64,000 nucleotides of DNA from Hyphomicrobiales bacterium. GTDB taxonomy: Bacteria; Pseudomonadota; Alphaproteobacteria; Rhizobiales; Rhizobiaceae. Shown one piece after another: positions 1,024-25,263 of the stretch. Location of the stretch: contig UCAG01000002.1 in assembly GCA_900470285.1 (NCBI GenBank), positions 200,146 to 264,145 on the forward strand, in the 5' to 3' direction. Every line of letters begins with the position of its first letter. The first letter of the stretch is position 1. Both the position numbers and the translations under genes were made by a program. Under the pieces are notes generated by a model. It ran no database searches. It had not been told where the DNA came from and saw nothing but the letters and a program-made list of their open reading frames with translations.

Positions 1024-2739
1024 TCAGAACAGGTTGTAACGCTGCGCAAGCGGCACGACAGAAACCGGCTCCGCCCCCACCTCTGCACCATCAACGCTGA
1101 CTTTATAAGTCTTCGGATCAACCGTAATTGCCGGCAATGCATCATTGAGCTTCATGTCAGCCTTGGTCAGGCCGCGGCATTTAACGACCGGCTCAATGCG
1201 CTTTTTCAAGCCCAGATTCAGCACATTACCATCATTGACCGATGCCTGACTGACGAACAGGATTGAGGTCTTGCCGATACCGGAAGACAAAGCACCAAAC
1301 ATCGGACGCATAATCACCGGCTGCGGTGTCGGGATCGACGCATTGGCATCGCCGATCTGCGCATAGGCGATGAAACCGCTCTTCATTACCAGTTCCGGAC
1401 GCTGGCCGAAGAATGCCGGTTTCCACAGCACCAGATCCGCGACTTTGCCGGTTTCAACTGACCCAATGAGATGGCTGATACCGTGAGCAATGGCAGGATT
1501 GATGGTATATTTGGCGATATAGCGTTTGATACGGAAATTATCATTGCCTGCACCATCCTGCGGCAGGCTACCGCGCTGCGCTTTCATCTGATCGGCGACC
1601 TGCCATGTCCGCATAATCACCTCACCGCCGCGTCCCATCGCCTGACTGTCAGAGGTCATCATGGAAATCGCACCTATATCATGCAGCACGCCTTCAGCAG
1701 CAATCGTGTTGGCACGGATACGGCTGGCCGCGAAAGCCACATCTTCCGGAATATTCTTATCCAGATGATGACAGACCATCAGCATATCGAGATGCTCTTC
1801 CACCGTATTCACAGTGTAAGGCAGTGTCGGCGTGGTGGAACTGGTCAGCACATTGGCTTCCGCACAGATGCGCATCAGATCAGGCGCATGACCACCGCCT
1901 GCACCTTCCGCATGATAGGCATGGATCGAACGACCGCCAAAGGCCTTGATGGAATCCTCCACCGTGCAGCTTTCATTGACGGAATCCATATGAATGGTGA
2001 CCTGAATGTCATATTCGTCGGCCATATCCATACAGGTTGCAATTGCCGCCGGTGTTGTGCCCCAGTCCTCATGCAGCTTCAGACCAGCAGCACCGGCCAG
2101 TACCTGCTCGCGCATACCTTCAGGACGGGATGAACTGCCGCGACCGGTAAAAATCACATTGAGCGGCAGATCATCGGTCGCCTGCATCATATTATGCAGA
2201 TAATTCGGATTTGGCGTGCAAGTGGTCGCCATTGAGCCTGTTGCAGGACCGGTACCGCCGCCAAGCACAGTGGTCAGCCCGCTGGCAATCGAGGTGATTG
2301 GCTGAGACGGCGTGATATAATGGAAGTGTGTATCAATACCACCGGCGGTAACGATACAGCCCTCACCCGAGATCACTTCTGTATTGACCCCGATCACCAG
2401 ATCAGGATGTACACCGGCCATGATATCCGGATTACCGGCTTTGCCGATACCGGCGATTTTACCGTCTTTGATACCGATATCGGCTTTAACAATGCCGGTA
2501 TAATCAATGATCAGCGCATTGGTGATGATGCAATCCAGCGCCTTGTCACTGCTGACACCGGTGGCCTGCCCCATTCCATCGCGAATGACCTTACCGGAAC
2601 CGAAGATGCACTCATCACCATAGACAGTGTAATCGTGTTCGACCTCCGCATAGAGATTAGTATCGCCCAGACGAACTTTGTCGCCCTTGGTCGGGCCGAA
2701 AAACTTGGCGTAATCTGCACGGGTTATTTCATAAACCAT
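1024..2739 (-). CDS. ureC: Urease alpha (catalytic) subunit, Helicobacter-like
   Basis: A full-length 571-residue urease alpha subunit that would hydrolyse urea to ammonia and carbamate in the cytoplasm. All metal and catalytic residues are visible: His138 and His140 in DTHFH, the lysine that is carbamylated (Lys221 in LKLHEDWG), His250 and His276, the mobile-flap Cys323-His324 in MVCHHLD, and Asp364 in TSDSQAMGR. The N-terminus and C-terminus (ending LAQRYNLF) read more like Helicobacter UreB than like the usual three-subunit bacterial UreC. The ATG has an AAGGAT site upstream. It follows the fused gamma-beta gene by about 90 bases and must be cotranscribed with it. No ureD, E, F, G, nickel or urea transporter gene occurs anywhere in the window, so activation depends on factors elsewhere or on none. 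Whether the metal is nickel or iron cannot be read from the sequence. Confidence 0.96.
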
Positions 2740-2827
2740 GTTTTATCCTTATCGGCAGAGCACGGTGCAACAGCATCTCCGGCGCCCTGCAAGCTTAAAT
2801 TATTGTTTGAAATTGTGATGAAAGCGC

Positions 2828-3589
2828 TCATTCAGCATGGCGGCTGTCGGCAAAAGCCCGCTCATTCACGCGGGAAAGTGTGCGCGCTTTATTGTCCGCA
2901 TCCACCGCGCCATCGACCAGATTATTACCGCCGCGAATGATCTGATTGCCGGAAATCGCGACCAGTGTAACGTCCTTGGTTTCACCCGGCTCGAAGCGCA
3001 CAGCCAGCCCCGCTGGAATATCCAGACGCTTGCCATAGGCTGCTTCACGGTCGAATTTCAGACGCGGATTAGTTTCAACAAAATTGAAATGGCTGCCAAT
3101 CTGTACCGGACGGCTATCGGTATTGGTGACGCTGATCGTGACAGTTTCACGTCCTTCATTCAGCGCAATGTCACCCTCAGCGCAGACAACCTGACCGGCA
3201 ATACCAATCTCTTCATCATCCTGCATTTTCTCCGGAACCGGCAGGAAACTGCCATAGAGTGCCAGTTTCATATCGCCTTTGTCCGCGCTGATTGGCGTGC
3301 GCACGGCCACCAGCTTGGTGCCGTCTTTAAATGTGCCTTCAATTTGCACATCTTCAATCATCTCCGCAACACCAGACATGACTTCACGTCTGCCGAGAAT
3401 AGTGCTGCCGAGGTGCATCAGTTGCGCGACTGAATGCTGACCATCACGGATCAACTCCAGCATGACCAGTGAGATCAGAGCCACGGCTTCCGGATAATTC
3501 AAACGCAGGCCGCGTGCGAGACGACGCTGTGCCAGCTGACCGGTGGTTACAAGCATCAGCTTGTCAGTTTCATGAGGTGTAAGATGCAA
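2828..3589 (-). CDS. ureAB: Urease gamma-beta fused subunit
   Basis: A 253-residue fusion of the urease gamma subunit (about residues 1-100, starting [12 protein letters not shown] and including [11 protein letters not shown]) and the beta subunit (about residues 135-250, including [13 protein letters not shown] and [17 protein letters not shown]). This is the arrangement of Helicobacter UreA (about 238 residues). The linker between the domains is roughly 25 residues longer than in H. pylori as I recall it, with the run [18 protein letters not shown]. The start is most likely the TTG at 3589: it gives an N-terminus aligned to the family and sits behind AAGGAGACACCA. A longer reading frame extends to 3661 but encodes no family sequence. 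It is the first gene of a two-gene unit with ureC. Symbol follows the fusion; ureA is used in Helicobacter. Confidence 0.93.
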
Positions 3590-4265
3590 TGGTGTCTCCT
3601 TTGTTTTCGGGAAACACAGGCACAGCAAATCGTAAGGCGTGCCAAAGCCTCGGCAAGCCACTATGAATTAGCAAAAACCTGTGTGAAGAATGGACGGCTG
3701 CGAAAACGAAGCTGACGCGGCGGTTTGTACTGACCGATATCAATGACATCACAGCTCGTTCTGCGGAGCAGACAGAGTTACAGATTACACAGCATCACCA
3801 CCGCATATATTCATGACAGTGAGCATTCATAGCACTGATTGCCGGACGCAATACGCCCGCAAGCAGAGCCGGTTATGCCGGTAATTTTCGGATGATACGG
3901 ATTAGCAATACAGAAAGGGCATCAGCACTTCGCAGCGGCTGAAACTAGCCGACGTTAAGTCCTGAAAAATGTTCCATCATGTGATTAACGACAAAAAAAG
4001 TCAGCAATCTCGGCCCTGTCATTTCAACTCTGTATGAAGAAAAAACTGCGATGCAGACTGGTCAATCTGAGTCATCGCATGGCCCGATAAAGACAGCAGT
4101 ATAAACCGAAGTCAAGGGGACATTGCTGCGCTCTTCACGACTAAAAATTACAGCTGAACACAACGACAAATGTTGTTTTGTTAAATCAAAAAATGAAATT
4201 TTACACTGAATCCTAAGTCTTTCCCTGTATGGGAGGGAAGGCAAATTAATACGAAAGCCTTTGCA
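3590..4265. other. Intergenic region between ureAB and the EAL gene
   Basis: About 680 bases separating divergent genes, so it must hold the urease promoter and the EAL gene promoter. It becomes AT-rich from about 4130. I saw no tRNA, no NikR-type palindrome and no convincing small gene. An 85-codon frame on the minus strand across 4062-4319 overlaps the EAL gene start and has no family features. Confidence 0.5.
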
Positions 4266-5843
4266 GTGATTTGGCACCGCCAGTTTAAGTTCAGAAAAAG
4301 CAGTTATACAGCACGACATATTATTGTTGTTTTGCTGGCTTTTTTCACACCTATACTTCTGGGACTGCCGATTTTATACTGGCAATCAGGCAATGCTTTA
4401 CACGAAAGAGCCCGGTCAGCCAGTCGCGCCATTATTGAACATGTCAATAACATTCTCGATAATGCAAGGAAGGTGACAGAAGAAACCTCATCACTGATTG
4501 AGAAACCCTGTTCCGAGATTGTCGAGACGCTGCGCCTCAAAGCGACCACAACATCTTTTGTAAGATCTCTGTCCGTTATAAAAAATGATATCATAACCTG
4601 CAGCACTATTTACGGGGACACACGCCTGCCCTTAACAAATGCCCGTTTTTATGATGACCGGCTGGCTTTAATCGCAGGAAACAGAGTTTCTCCCGACCGA
4701 GCAATTCTGCTTTACAGGTGGAAAAGCGGCAACTCTTATATTCTGGCAGGGATTGACGGGCTACATATCATTCAGCTGCTCAACAGCCATGAGATGACAC
4801 CGGCAACAACGCTGATTATCGGATCTTACCGGCTAGAACAGGACGGCAAAGTCCGCAACATATCCGCAGGAACCAATAGCAGTATTCTGATCCGTGCCCG
4901 TTCTGATAAATATCCGTTTTCGGTTGAGACCGGTTTCCACCATGATGCATTACGGGATTATATTTTATCCCGTCACCTTCCGCTTATCATCCTTCTCATC
5001 ATTCTTGGCGGATTGAGCGCGGTGGCAACAAACCGGATGACTGTCAATGCCCGCAATATGACGGCTGAAGCCAAACGCGCCATCCGCAATAATGAATTTA
5101 TCCCTTATTATCAGGCGATTGTCCGGAGCGACACACATGGCTGGGTTGGAGCAGAAGTTCTGACCCGCTGGGATCATCCGCTTGAAGGCCTGATCCTGCC
5201 AAACAGTTTCATTCCTTTTATGGAGCGTTCCGGACTGATTATTCCGATGACTGCCGCCCTGATCCGGCGCGTTGCGGAAGAGTTTACGCCACTGGAGAAG
5301 CAACTTCCGGACGGTTTCCATATCAGCATCAATATTTCAGCAGTCTATCTGGCCGACCCGGAACTGATCAAAAGCTGTCATTATTTCCTGAACCAGTTTT
5401 CGCAGAACAAAATACGGCTGATGCTGGAACTGACCGAACGCGAAGCAATTGATCCAACACCGGAACTCTTACAGCAAATCCATACACTGCGTCAGGCCGG
5501 AATTCTGATCGCACTGGACGATTTTGGCGTCGGCCATTCCAATCTGAATTATCTGAAGGAATTTCAGGCCGACTTGCTCAAAATTGACCGTAGTTTTATT
5601 ACCGGCATTGGCAGTAATGACTTCTCCCGCCATGTTCTGCAAAGCATCATTGATCTGTCACAGCAACTGGAACTCCGGATCATTGCAGAAGGTATAGAAA
5701 CCCGCCAGCAAGCTGATTATCTTCAGAAAAGAGGCGTCCAGTATCTTCAAGGCTATTATTTCTCCACGCCGCAACCCATTGCTGTTTTCCAGTCCCATAT
5801 GCATAAACATTTATCAGGTCAGAAGCCGAAACGCGGCAAGTGA
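4266..5843 (+). CDS. CSS-sensor EAL-domain c-di-GMP phosphodiesterase
   Basis: A 525-residue inner-membrane protein. A first membrane segment lies at about residues 18-39, a periplasmic CSS-type sensor follows with Cys82 (PCSE) and Cys112 (TCST), a second membrane segment lies at about 240-258, and a C-terminal EAL domain fills about 275-515. The EAL domain keeps the residues needed for catalysis: EVLTRW for the ExLxR signature, NISAVY, ELTERE, DDFGVGHSN, LKIDRSF, IAEGIET and QGYYFSTP. It should therefore degrade cyclic di-GMP. In enterobacterial CSS proteins the periplasmic cysteines are known to control activity through a disulfide; the same is inferred here. The start is uncertain: the GTG at 4266 has no good ribosome binding site, while GGGAGGG lies 30 bases upstream without an ordinary in-frame start behind it. 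Confidence 0.9.
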   Translation: MIWHRQFKFRKSSYTARHIIVVLLAFFTPILLGLPILYWQSGNALHERARSASRAIIEHVNNILDNARKVTEETSSLIEKPCSEIVETLRLKATTTSFVRSLSVIKNDIITCSTIYGDTRLPLTNARFYDDRLALIAGNRVSPDRAILLYRWKSGNSYILAGIDGLHIIQLLNSHEMTPATTLIIGSYRLEQDGKVRNISAGTNSSILIRARSDKYPFSVETGFHHDALRDYILSRHLPLIILLIILGGLSAVATNRMTVNARNMTAEAKRAIRNNEFIPYYQAIVRSDTHGWVGAEVLTRWDHPLEGLILPNSFIPFMERSGLIIPMTAALIRRVAEEFTPLEKQLPDGFHISINISAVYLADPELIKSCHYFLNQFSQNKIRLMLELTEREAIDPTPELLQQIHTLRQAGILIALDDFGVGHSNLNYLKEFQADLLKIDRSFITGIGSNDFSRHVLQSIIDLSQQLELRIIAEGIETRQQADYLQKRGVQYLQGYYFSTPQPIAVFQSHMHKHLSGQKPKRGK

Positions 5844-23324: not shown

Positions 23325-23710
23325 AAACCCCTCCCAAGGCTCCCCGACCGGATGGGATTTCATTCTGTCTGCACAATCATTCACATCATTATTGTCAGCA
23401 CAAAAACAACATATGTTTTTCACCATACAGAAATGTATATTCAATGACCGGAGTTTCAGCCCATCATAATCTGATTTAACGGCTTGTTTGCACAGTTGCA
23501 AGCACAGGCTTAACCAATAAAGCCCGATATTTCCGCATTGCCGGAATGCTCAGATTTTATCCCCGTAAAACATATATAATTGTCAGTATTTCACCGGCCA
23601 AAACTGTCTATGGTGCGGATTGTTTTTATTTAACAGACCCAAAGAGAAATACAGCTGCCGGATTTTGGAATATCCGTCAGCCATTCAATGAAACGGGGGA
23701 GAGCAAACTG
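23325..23710. other. Intergenic region between liv operon and IalB gene
   Basis: About 390 bases between divergent genes, AT-rich in the middle, holding both promoters. I see no RNA gene and no clear operator. Confidence 0.5.
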
Positions 23711-24250
23711 ATGAACAATAAAAATATCCGCAAAATAATATCCGGAACTGCCATGATACTGATGCTGCACACCGTTTCAGTATCTGCTGCCACCGGATTA
23801 CCAGGCGGTGCATCATCGCTTTCTGAAACTTACGGCAACTGGACAGTCTCCTGCCTTGTTCAAAAACAGGATGAAGCGCCAAAAGTCCTCTGCTCCATGT
23901 CCCAGCAGCAGGTTGATGATAAAAGGCAGCGGGCACTTGCCGTTGAACTCAGCCCCGATAAAAGCGGTGCATCCGGCGCTTTTGTTCTGCCATTCGGCCT
24001 CAATCTCAGCGCCGGAGCGGTTTTGCAGATTGATGAAACAGCTACTGACAAACCTGTCGCATTCTCAACCTGCCTGCCTGCCGGTTGCATTGTACCCGCC
24101 AGTTTTGATGCTGCGAAAACAGATGCCTTAAGTAAGGGGCAGAACCTGTCTGTCCTCATACAATCTGCGGACGGAAAAGATCTTAAACTCACAGTCCCGC
24201 TGGATGGCTTTGCCTCCGCCATAAAACGCACCAGAGAATTGCTGAAATAG
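23711..24250 (+). CDS. Invasion-associated locus B (IalB) family protein
   Basis: A 179-residue exported protein with a signal peptide (about residues 1-28, cleavage after SVSAA). The mature part matches the IalB family: YGNWTVSC near the start, a second Cys in VLCSMSQQ, and the conserved CLPAGCIVP region with two more cysteines, probably forming disulfides. Bartonella IalB is linked to erythrocyte invasion, but the family is widespread in Rhizobiales and its cellular role is not settled. The start ATG follows GGGGGAG. It is monocistronic and ends at a strong terminator. Confidence 0.87.
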   Translation: MNNKNIRKIISGTAMILMLHTVSVSAATGLPGGASSLSETYGNWTVSCLVQKQDEAPKVLCSMSQQQVDDKRQRALAVELSPDKSGASGAFVLPFGLNLSAGAVLQIDETATDKPVAFSTCLPAGCIVPASFDAAKTDALSKGQNLSVLIQSADGKDLKLTVPLDGFASAIKRTRELLK

Positions 24251-24271
24251 TGCCCGCTTATAGCACAAAAC

Positions 24272-24304
24272 AAAAAAGCTCCGGCAAACCGGAGCTTTTC
24301 TTTT
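24272..24304. terminator. Bidirectional terminator between IalB gene and sugar operon
   Basis: AAAAGCTCCGG and CCGGAGCTTTT pair over a four-base loop with A and T runs outside, ending both convergent units. Confidence 0.87.
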
Positions 24305-24318
24305 CAGGTACAACCCGA

Positions 24319-25263
24319 TCAATATGGTGAATCAGGGAAGTAGAATTCCTGCGCATTGTCCTTAGTGACAAGGGTTGCATCCAGAATATAACGTCCGCGC
24401 ACCGGCACCTGATCGTAGAAATTGGCAACGGTCAGTTCCATTGCAGTTGCGATCATTGCAGGCGGATAGAGCACATCAACCGGCACCAACGCATCGCCGT
24501 CGGCAACCTTTTTGATCATTTCTTTCATACCGGCACCGCCGACAACCATTTTAATATCTGTGCGTTTGGCCTGCTGAATGGCTTCAAGAGCGCCAACGCT
24601 CATATCGTCATCCTGCGTCCAGACCGCATCGATTTTCGGATATTTAACCAGATAGTCCTGCATCACTTTAAAGGCATCATCGCGCGACCAGTTACCAAAC
24701 TGCTTGTCCAGCACCTTGATATCGCTGCCGGCAACCGCACCGTCAAAACCCTTCTGTCGCTCTTCATCAATCACGATCGGCAGGCCACGAATAACCACGA
24801 CATCGCCTTTGCCGAGCGTGTCTTTGAGATACTGACCGGCAACGCGGCCGAGTTCTTCATTATTACCGGCAACATAAAGATCCTGAATGGACTGGTCAGA
24901 CAATGCGCGGTCAACAACGGTAATGAAAATGCCCTTATCCTTCACCTGACGGATCGGATCGGTCAGCTCATCGGAATTATGCGGCAGCGTTACCAGCGCA
25001 TCCATGCCTTGCGTGGTCAGATCTTCCAGAGCGTTGGCCTGCGAAGCGCCGTCCGGCGAGGTTTTGATAACAATTTTCAGACCCGGATGGTTCTTCTCCA
25101 GAACCGCTTTTGCACGTTCTGCGTGATAGACAACGCCGCCGGTCCAGCCGTGGTCAGCCGCCGGTATCGACACGGCAATCGTGACTTTCTTTTCTTCCTG
25201 TGCCTGAGCCGCTGTCCCGAACAGGGCAGCAGCACAAACAGCACCTAACAGAATATTTTTCAT
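24319..25263 (-). CDS. Sugar ABC transporter, periplasmic binding protein (RbsB-like)
   Basis: A 314-residue type I binding protein with a Sec signal peptide (MKNILLGAVCAAALFGTAAQAQ). The mature domain starts KVTIAVSIPAADHGWTGG and carries NNEELGRVAGQYL, a typical pattern of the ribose/galactose/xylose cluster (Peripla_BP_4). The ATG at 25263 is set by AGGGAGTGAGATC. It is the last gene of the operon, separated from the permease gene by about 100 bases with a stem-loop, which probably raises its level. The sugar is not readable; the xylA neighbourhood suggests a pentose or related aldose. Confidence 0.9.
   Translation of the reverse strand: MKNILLGAVCAAALFGTAAQAQEEKKVTIAVSIPAADHGWTGGVVYHAERAKAVLEKNHPGLKIVIKTSPDGASQANALEDLTTQGMDALVTLPHNSDELTDPIRQVKDKGIFITVVDRALSDQSIQDLYVAGNNEELGRVAGQYLKDTLGKGDVVVIRGLPIVIDEERQKGFDGAVAGSDIKVLDKQFGNWSRDDAFKVMQDYLVKYPKIDAVWTQDDDMSVGALEAIQQAKRTDIKMVVGGAGMKEMIKKVADGDALVPVDVLYPPAMIATAMELTVANFYDQVPVRGRYILDATLVTKDNAQEFYFPDSPY

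Follow-up and report, generated by a model that had tools for sequence, protein, structure and literature searches.

A two-gene urease of a Hyphomicrobiales bacterium that probably matures without UreD, UreF or UreG

Guarded nickel delivery has its textbook example in urease, which is matured by UreD, UreE, UreF and UreG, and to our knowledge ureases free of accessory genes are known from only two settings other than the one described here, UreA2B2 of Helicobacter mustelae and the urease of Bacillus subtilis. Helicobacter UreA2B2 has no accessory genes of its own. It is a known iron urease, and ureA2B2 has been traced to an ancient duplication (PMC11541087). Iron-dependent ureases have also been speculated upon in a cave Sphingobacterium that carries UreD-G (PMC9283089). 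The urease discussed here is read by us as a member of a putative accessory-independent lineage outside Helicobacter, of which no description was found in the titles and abstract openings of the open-licence literature.

The window, a stretch of 64,000 nucleotides, carries two urease genes on its minus strand. The gene ureC (1024..2739) encodes an alpha subunit of 571 residues (NCBIfam urease_alph, 896.7 bits against a cut-off of 680) and follows, after a gap of 88 bases, the upstream gene ureAB (2828..3589), which encodes a fused gamma-beta subunit of 253 residues (PRK13192, 'bifunctional urease subunit gamma/beta', 305.9 bits against a cut-off of 243). Both genes exceed the curated cut-offs, and the single ureAB frame carries both Pfam Urease_gamma and Urease_beta. 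The start codon of ureAB is TTG, not ATG, and stands behind a motif resembling a ribosome binding site, AAGGAGA (3595..3601, minus strand, read from the sequence), whose GGAG is kept in six genus genomes. A scan for promoters and terminators gave 7 promoter-like sites against 4.0 in shuffles and 3 terminator-like sites against 3.2. The neighbours are an alpha/beta hydrolase at 114-824 and, divergent from the urease genes, an EAL/CSS-motif cyclic-di-GMP phosphodiesterase-like protein at 4266-5843 (plus strand), and neither is a urease helper. The codons of His138, His140, Lys221, His250, His276 and Asp364, which we take to be the metal ligands of UreC, lie within 1648..2328 (minus strand) and are invariant in the 108 UreC aligned; the equivalent of Lys221 is carbamylated in known ureases. 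The 13 positions that we count as ligand or catalytic ones are invariant in the alignment, in the 8 UreC of the clade defined below as in 100 other UreC, which bears out the claim of the first-pass annotation that the active site is intact.

The same annotation had described a stand-alone urease with no accessory genes in its flanks, and for UreD, UreF and UreG this absence now extends to the genome and the genus. The window's genome (3.81 Mb, 99.76% complete) was checked for other ure operons and accessory genes, as had been proposed; it holds one UreC only, and UreG, UreD, UreF and NikR have no match in it at E 0.001. Home-made profiles of UreD, UreE, UreF and UreG were used on locus flanks and on the main contig of L188, a urease discussed below. 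They find no accessory gene in a further 14 kb outside the window and no UreE in the flanks of the window locus. In the genus, UreAB is present in 6 of 7 genomes, the exception being the incomplete G298 (L032), while UreF and UreG are each absent from all seven. UreD is absent from the six genomes of good quality, and in G298, which is 61% complete, it is represented by one fragment below the cut-off (21.3 bits) with one stop inside. Neither NikR (7 of 7 genomes) nor a HypB-like GTPase has a match in the genus genomes, and the one NicO protein found in each of them bears a weak resemblance to efflux transporters (23 bits, with a cut-off of 195). The control searches recovered UreF in both rhizobial comparison genomes and UreG in 2 of the 4 MAGs fetched through their loci; the UreG profile also matches in E. 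coli, where it presumably reflects HypB. A nickel urease of the accessory-dependent kind would have UreD, UreF and UreG encoded in its genome, and none of the three was detected here.

It could be argued that the accessory role is filled by proteins that escape the profiles or are not homologous at all, for example a general metal chaperone, so that unrelated proteins could replace UreD, UreF and UreG. Profiles can miss divergent homologues, UreE was searched for in the flanks only, and a ClpB-type AAA ATPase adjoins the Azobacteroides-type urease described below. We consider this unlikely, however, given that the controls were recovered, that UreG is highly conserved and that the tunnel acid needed by the accessory complex of H. 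pylori is gone from this enzyme.

The importance of that residue has been reported for H. pylori, where the substitution D336A in UreB leaves the accessory complex intact and abolishes activity, and where Y543A in UreB and E177A in UreA disrupt accessory binding (PMC10121161). The flanking motif, and the shift from Lys219 to Lys221, equate Asp336 with residue 338 of the window's UreC, at the mouth of the nickel tunnel (codon at 1726..1728, minus strand), which falls within residues 326-352 (1684..1764, minus strand), by alignment the switch II region that binds UreD in H. pylori urease (PMC10121161). What is new here is that this tunnel-mouth position is Ala across the clade, in 8 of 8 UreC. 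It is acidic in all 105 comparison bacterial UreC (Glu in 86, Asp in 19), a set in which the fetched flank holds an accessory gene in 86 cases and none in 19, the latter made up of 11 rhizobial loci with 1.5 kb flanks, 6 cyanobacteria, and L111 and L121, whose UreG lies elsewhere. An accessory-dependent nickel urease would be expected to keep an acidic residue at the position of UreB Asp336, and this clade has Ala instead; it thus has by nature the replacement that in H. pylori closes the chaperone route. Tyr545, the counterpart of UreB Tyr543 that UreFD binding requires in H. pylori, is retained in the clade. In plant ureases position 338 is His or Ala, and plants possess UreD, UreF and UreG, so the residue alone proves no accessory independence. 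The rule linking position 338 with accessory genes is also not perfect, as the urease of a Fibrobacter MAG (L073) has Asp there with no UreG match in its genome; its contig holds ureE and ends about 700 bases after ureC. Five further changes, G177N, K200R, G258C, I288L and P299T, are uniform in the clade and found only there, at sites that are invariant or nearly so in the 105 other ureases.

The urease is well conserved within its genus. For ureC the dN/dS lies between 0.006 and 0.027 at a dS of 0.26-0.66 (15 pairs from six genus genomes), and UreC is under strong purifying selection. All five other genus genomes compared carry the operon at this site; in L049-L051, three of the five, its similarity to the window exceeds that of the flanks. 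The clade's urease copies have no internal stops. These data bear on the idea that the urease is inactive or repurposed and is retained for some different role, for which one could cite the loss of the accessory genes and the departures at 16 of 239 near-invariant positions. We regard this as improbable, in view of the near-zero dN/dS, the uninterrupted frames and the retention, by all 8 clade members, of the 13 positions counted as ligand or catalytic.

UreC matches occur in 257 of 297 sampled genomes of the family. Identity to the window's UreC is 98% or 99% in the 4 other genus members sampled and 81% in a Paenochrobactrum MAG, and in this family sample all others reach at most 62% among the matches listed. 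Since the nearest genus with the gene is the one that this MAG represents, the window's genus is probably Pseudochrobactrum. A second genome of the MAG's genus (G078) lacks UreC, UreF and UreG. At E 1e-50, UreAB was found in 9 other genomes among 385 of the class, at 46-56% identity. The best of 164 plasmid records with a UreC match is pOT1-5 of Haematobacter massiliensis, at 76%, with the other plasmid UreC at 64% or less among the matches listed. On pOT1-5 nikR is followed by ureAB and then ureC, with integrases, toprim proteins and an IS110 transposase on the flanks; no accessory gene is found in a 25.7-kb stretch and no UreG on the whole plasmid. Toxin-antitoxin genes annotated as VapC/AbrB-type and AbiE-type are also found in this region (L132:5085-5677 and 23522-25250). 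H. massiliensis isolates have been reported as urease-positive (PMC5664910); these are other strains and may hold another urease. The urease of the Paenochrobactrum MAG is followed downstream, at L046:4268-4807 (minus strand), by a short and divergent gene resembling those of beta carbonic anhydrases (Pfam Pro_CA, 34.9 bits), and it is conceivable that this gene links CO2 supply with lysine carbamylation or pH control. A single viral-contig scan gave one partial match, at 61%, and virus-borne copies were rejected.

The window's genus, the Paenochrobactrum MAG and the H. massiliensis plasmid form one clade with support of 100/100 in a tree of 42 rows. This tree was hand-chosen from 115 rows and a second used 68 of 108 UreC rows (the 108 being drawn from 111 candidates, with L067, L084 and L087 left out); neither holds Helicobacter rows. 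Grouping with ordinary alphaproteobacterial UreC had been named in advance as the result that would speak against the first-pass reading, and it fails: with the 5 clade rows held together with 5 alphaproteobacterial rows, descent from alphaproteobacterial UreC is rejected at p-AU 2.15e-5, with a log-likelihood 75 lower. The origin of this urease is outside the alphaproteobacterial urease lineage, a position in the tree that supports the proposed acquisition by transfer. The neighbours of the clade in the tree are fused-type ureases of Acidobacteriota, Myxococcota and Verrucomicrobiota, in a neighbourhood of weak support.

The likeness to Helicobacter that had first been suggested does not carry over to descent. 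In phmmer comparisons with solved structures, whose organism names we partly presume, the window's UreC scores 821 bits with plant urease, 768 with Klebsiella and 758 with Sporosarcina, ahead of H. mustelae UreB2 (3qga_C, 751 bits) and H. pylori UreB (747 bits). On these scores H. mustelae UreB2 is not nearest, and Helicobacter descent was rejected. Nor is the fused gamma-beta subunit a mark of Helicobacter, since the fusion is present in 16 of 79 loci (L053-L131), 14 of the 16 having UreD, UreF or UreG nearby.

Outside the clade, a non-acidic residue at 338 was found among the bacterial UreC compared only in L064, from a Candidatus Azobacteroides MAG (Arg), and in L188, from genome G961 (Gln). 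Home-made profiles find no accessory genes in the fetched stretches of either. The genome of L064, for which no completeness is given, has no UreG match. In G961 the search covered the main contig; it found no UreD, UreE or UreF, and for UreG at best 17 bits, against 1077 for UreC. The same search yielded six further Bacteroidia ureases, which come with UreD, UreF and UreG and have Asp or Glu at 338. Of the 239 near-invariant sites of UreC, 16 are altered in the clade and 15 in the Azobacteroides pair, with 7 departures common to both (45, 254, 303, 338, 344, 381 and 384; hypergeometric p 7e-6, a post hoc value that ignores relatedness). None of the clade's 16 departures is shared by 98 of the 105 comparison UreC, and no comparison UreC shares more than 3. 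A common origin of the clade and the Azobacteroides-type ureases is not rejected by the AU test (p-AU 0.39), so a single event may account for both accessory-poor lineages. Like the window's urease, the Azobacteroides type has fused UreAB with UreC, lacks detectable accessory genes and has a non-acidic 338 (the UreC of L064 being 63% identical to the window's); it differs in having an operon with a urea-type ABC transporter and in having Phe in place of Tyr545. In L064 an aliphatic amidase (710 bits) and the ClpB-type AAA ATPase lie between the genes of this transporter and ureAB (L064:6474-8912, plus strand).

With the three main helper genes undetected, and with the loss of the acidic residue by which UreFD hands over nickel in H. 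pylori, the metal centre is probably assembled in another way. The explanation that we prefer, with a probability of about 70%, is that this is a functional urease that would complete its two-metal centre without UreD, UreF or UreG. The apoenzyme would take metal and CO2 straight from the cytosol. Its ancestor may have been a fused-type, accessory-dependent urease that later lost the accessory genes, and the two-gene module may then have spread by mobile elements. The metal could be iron, spontaneously loaded nickel or whatever a promiscuous site accepts. A stronger version, which we put forward only tentatively from these comparisons, would be a self-maturing family in three alphaproteobacterial genera (in one of them on a plasmid), perhaps also in termite symbionts, that has given up the UreFD nickel tunnel and uses iron or any available divalent metal.

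As to which metal is used, a nickel enzyme that is loaded spontaneously, taking up Ni(II) and CO2 without chaperones and perhaps inefficiently, is a real possibility that we place somewhat short of even odds. All ligands of nickel ureases are kept, the nikR beside the plasmid copy also fits nickel use, and there is a precedent in B. subtilis, whose ureABC is reported to have very low intrinsic activity without accessory genes (PMC8600894). Against it, the genus has no nickel-specific gene among NikR and UreG, and its NicO is weakly efflux-like.

Use of iron or of another non-nickel metal is possible too, though we would bet against it. The hints are indirect, namely the lost tunnel residue, the missing nickel chaperones and the nikR by the plasmid copy. 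As a sub-case of the preferred explanation, an iron urease convergent with Helicobacter UreA2B2 would bind Fe(II), would need no nickel chaperones and, in the NikR-switched copy on the Haematobacter plasmid, could serve as a backup enzyme for low nickel; we hold it no more than tentatively. The two-gene fused layout without accessory genes is that of UreA2B2, and the genus lacks a match to NikR, UreG or a HypB-like GTPase. H. mustelae ureases are reportedly under inverse nickel regulation, which the nikR directly upstream on the plasmid recalls. The scores in switch II can be added to this. In the segment of 27 residues, two comparisons rank H. mustelae UreB2 last among the ureases and a third does not list it, yet over the 76 residues on either side UreB2 scores higher than H. 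pylori, and judging by these scores its switch II may be altered as well. On the other side, the closest descent is not with Helicobacter UreB2, and the alphaproteobacterial hosts are probably aerobic, which would put an Fe(II) site at risk. There is also no NikR operator or iron-regulator box above chance: an E. coli-type NikR consensus and an Irr-type iron box both occurred at chance level.

If the preferred explanation is right, a conserved lineage carrying the change in the tunnel that inactivates H. pylori urease would be an experiment of nature on the tunnel model, and on the requirements for unaided metal loading by an enzyme. It may allow other chaperone-free ureases to be recognised from sequence. 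On the stronger version, a missing tunnel acid combined with the other shared changes would mark ureases freed from nickel chaperones. A ureC in a genome would also not need to imply a nickel-chaperone pathway.

Compared with the known systems, this locus resembles each of them in part. It shares with Helicobacter UreA2B2 (H. mustelae; PDB 3QGA, 3QGK) the two genes for a fused gamma-beta and an alpha subunit and perhaps, judging by the nikR on the Haematobacter plasmid, a link with nickel regulation; it differs in descent and in that the window's genus has no second, accessory-equipped urease to act in trans. The ureABC of B. subtilis likewise consists of structural genes without accessory genes (PMC8600894), but these are three separate genes where the window has the fused ureAB. 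The fused-type ureases of Acidobacteriota, Myxococcota, Verrucomicrobiota and Hymenobacter have the same gamma-beta fusion, and their UreC, at 64-67% identity, come nearer than any other in the 80 genome loci kept once the clade and its plasmid member are set aside. They differ from the window's urease in having UreD, UreF and mostly UreG nearby, and in carrying Asp or Glu at position 338.
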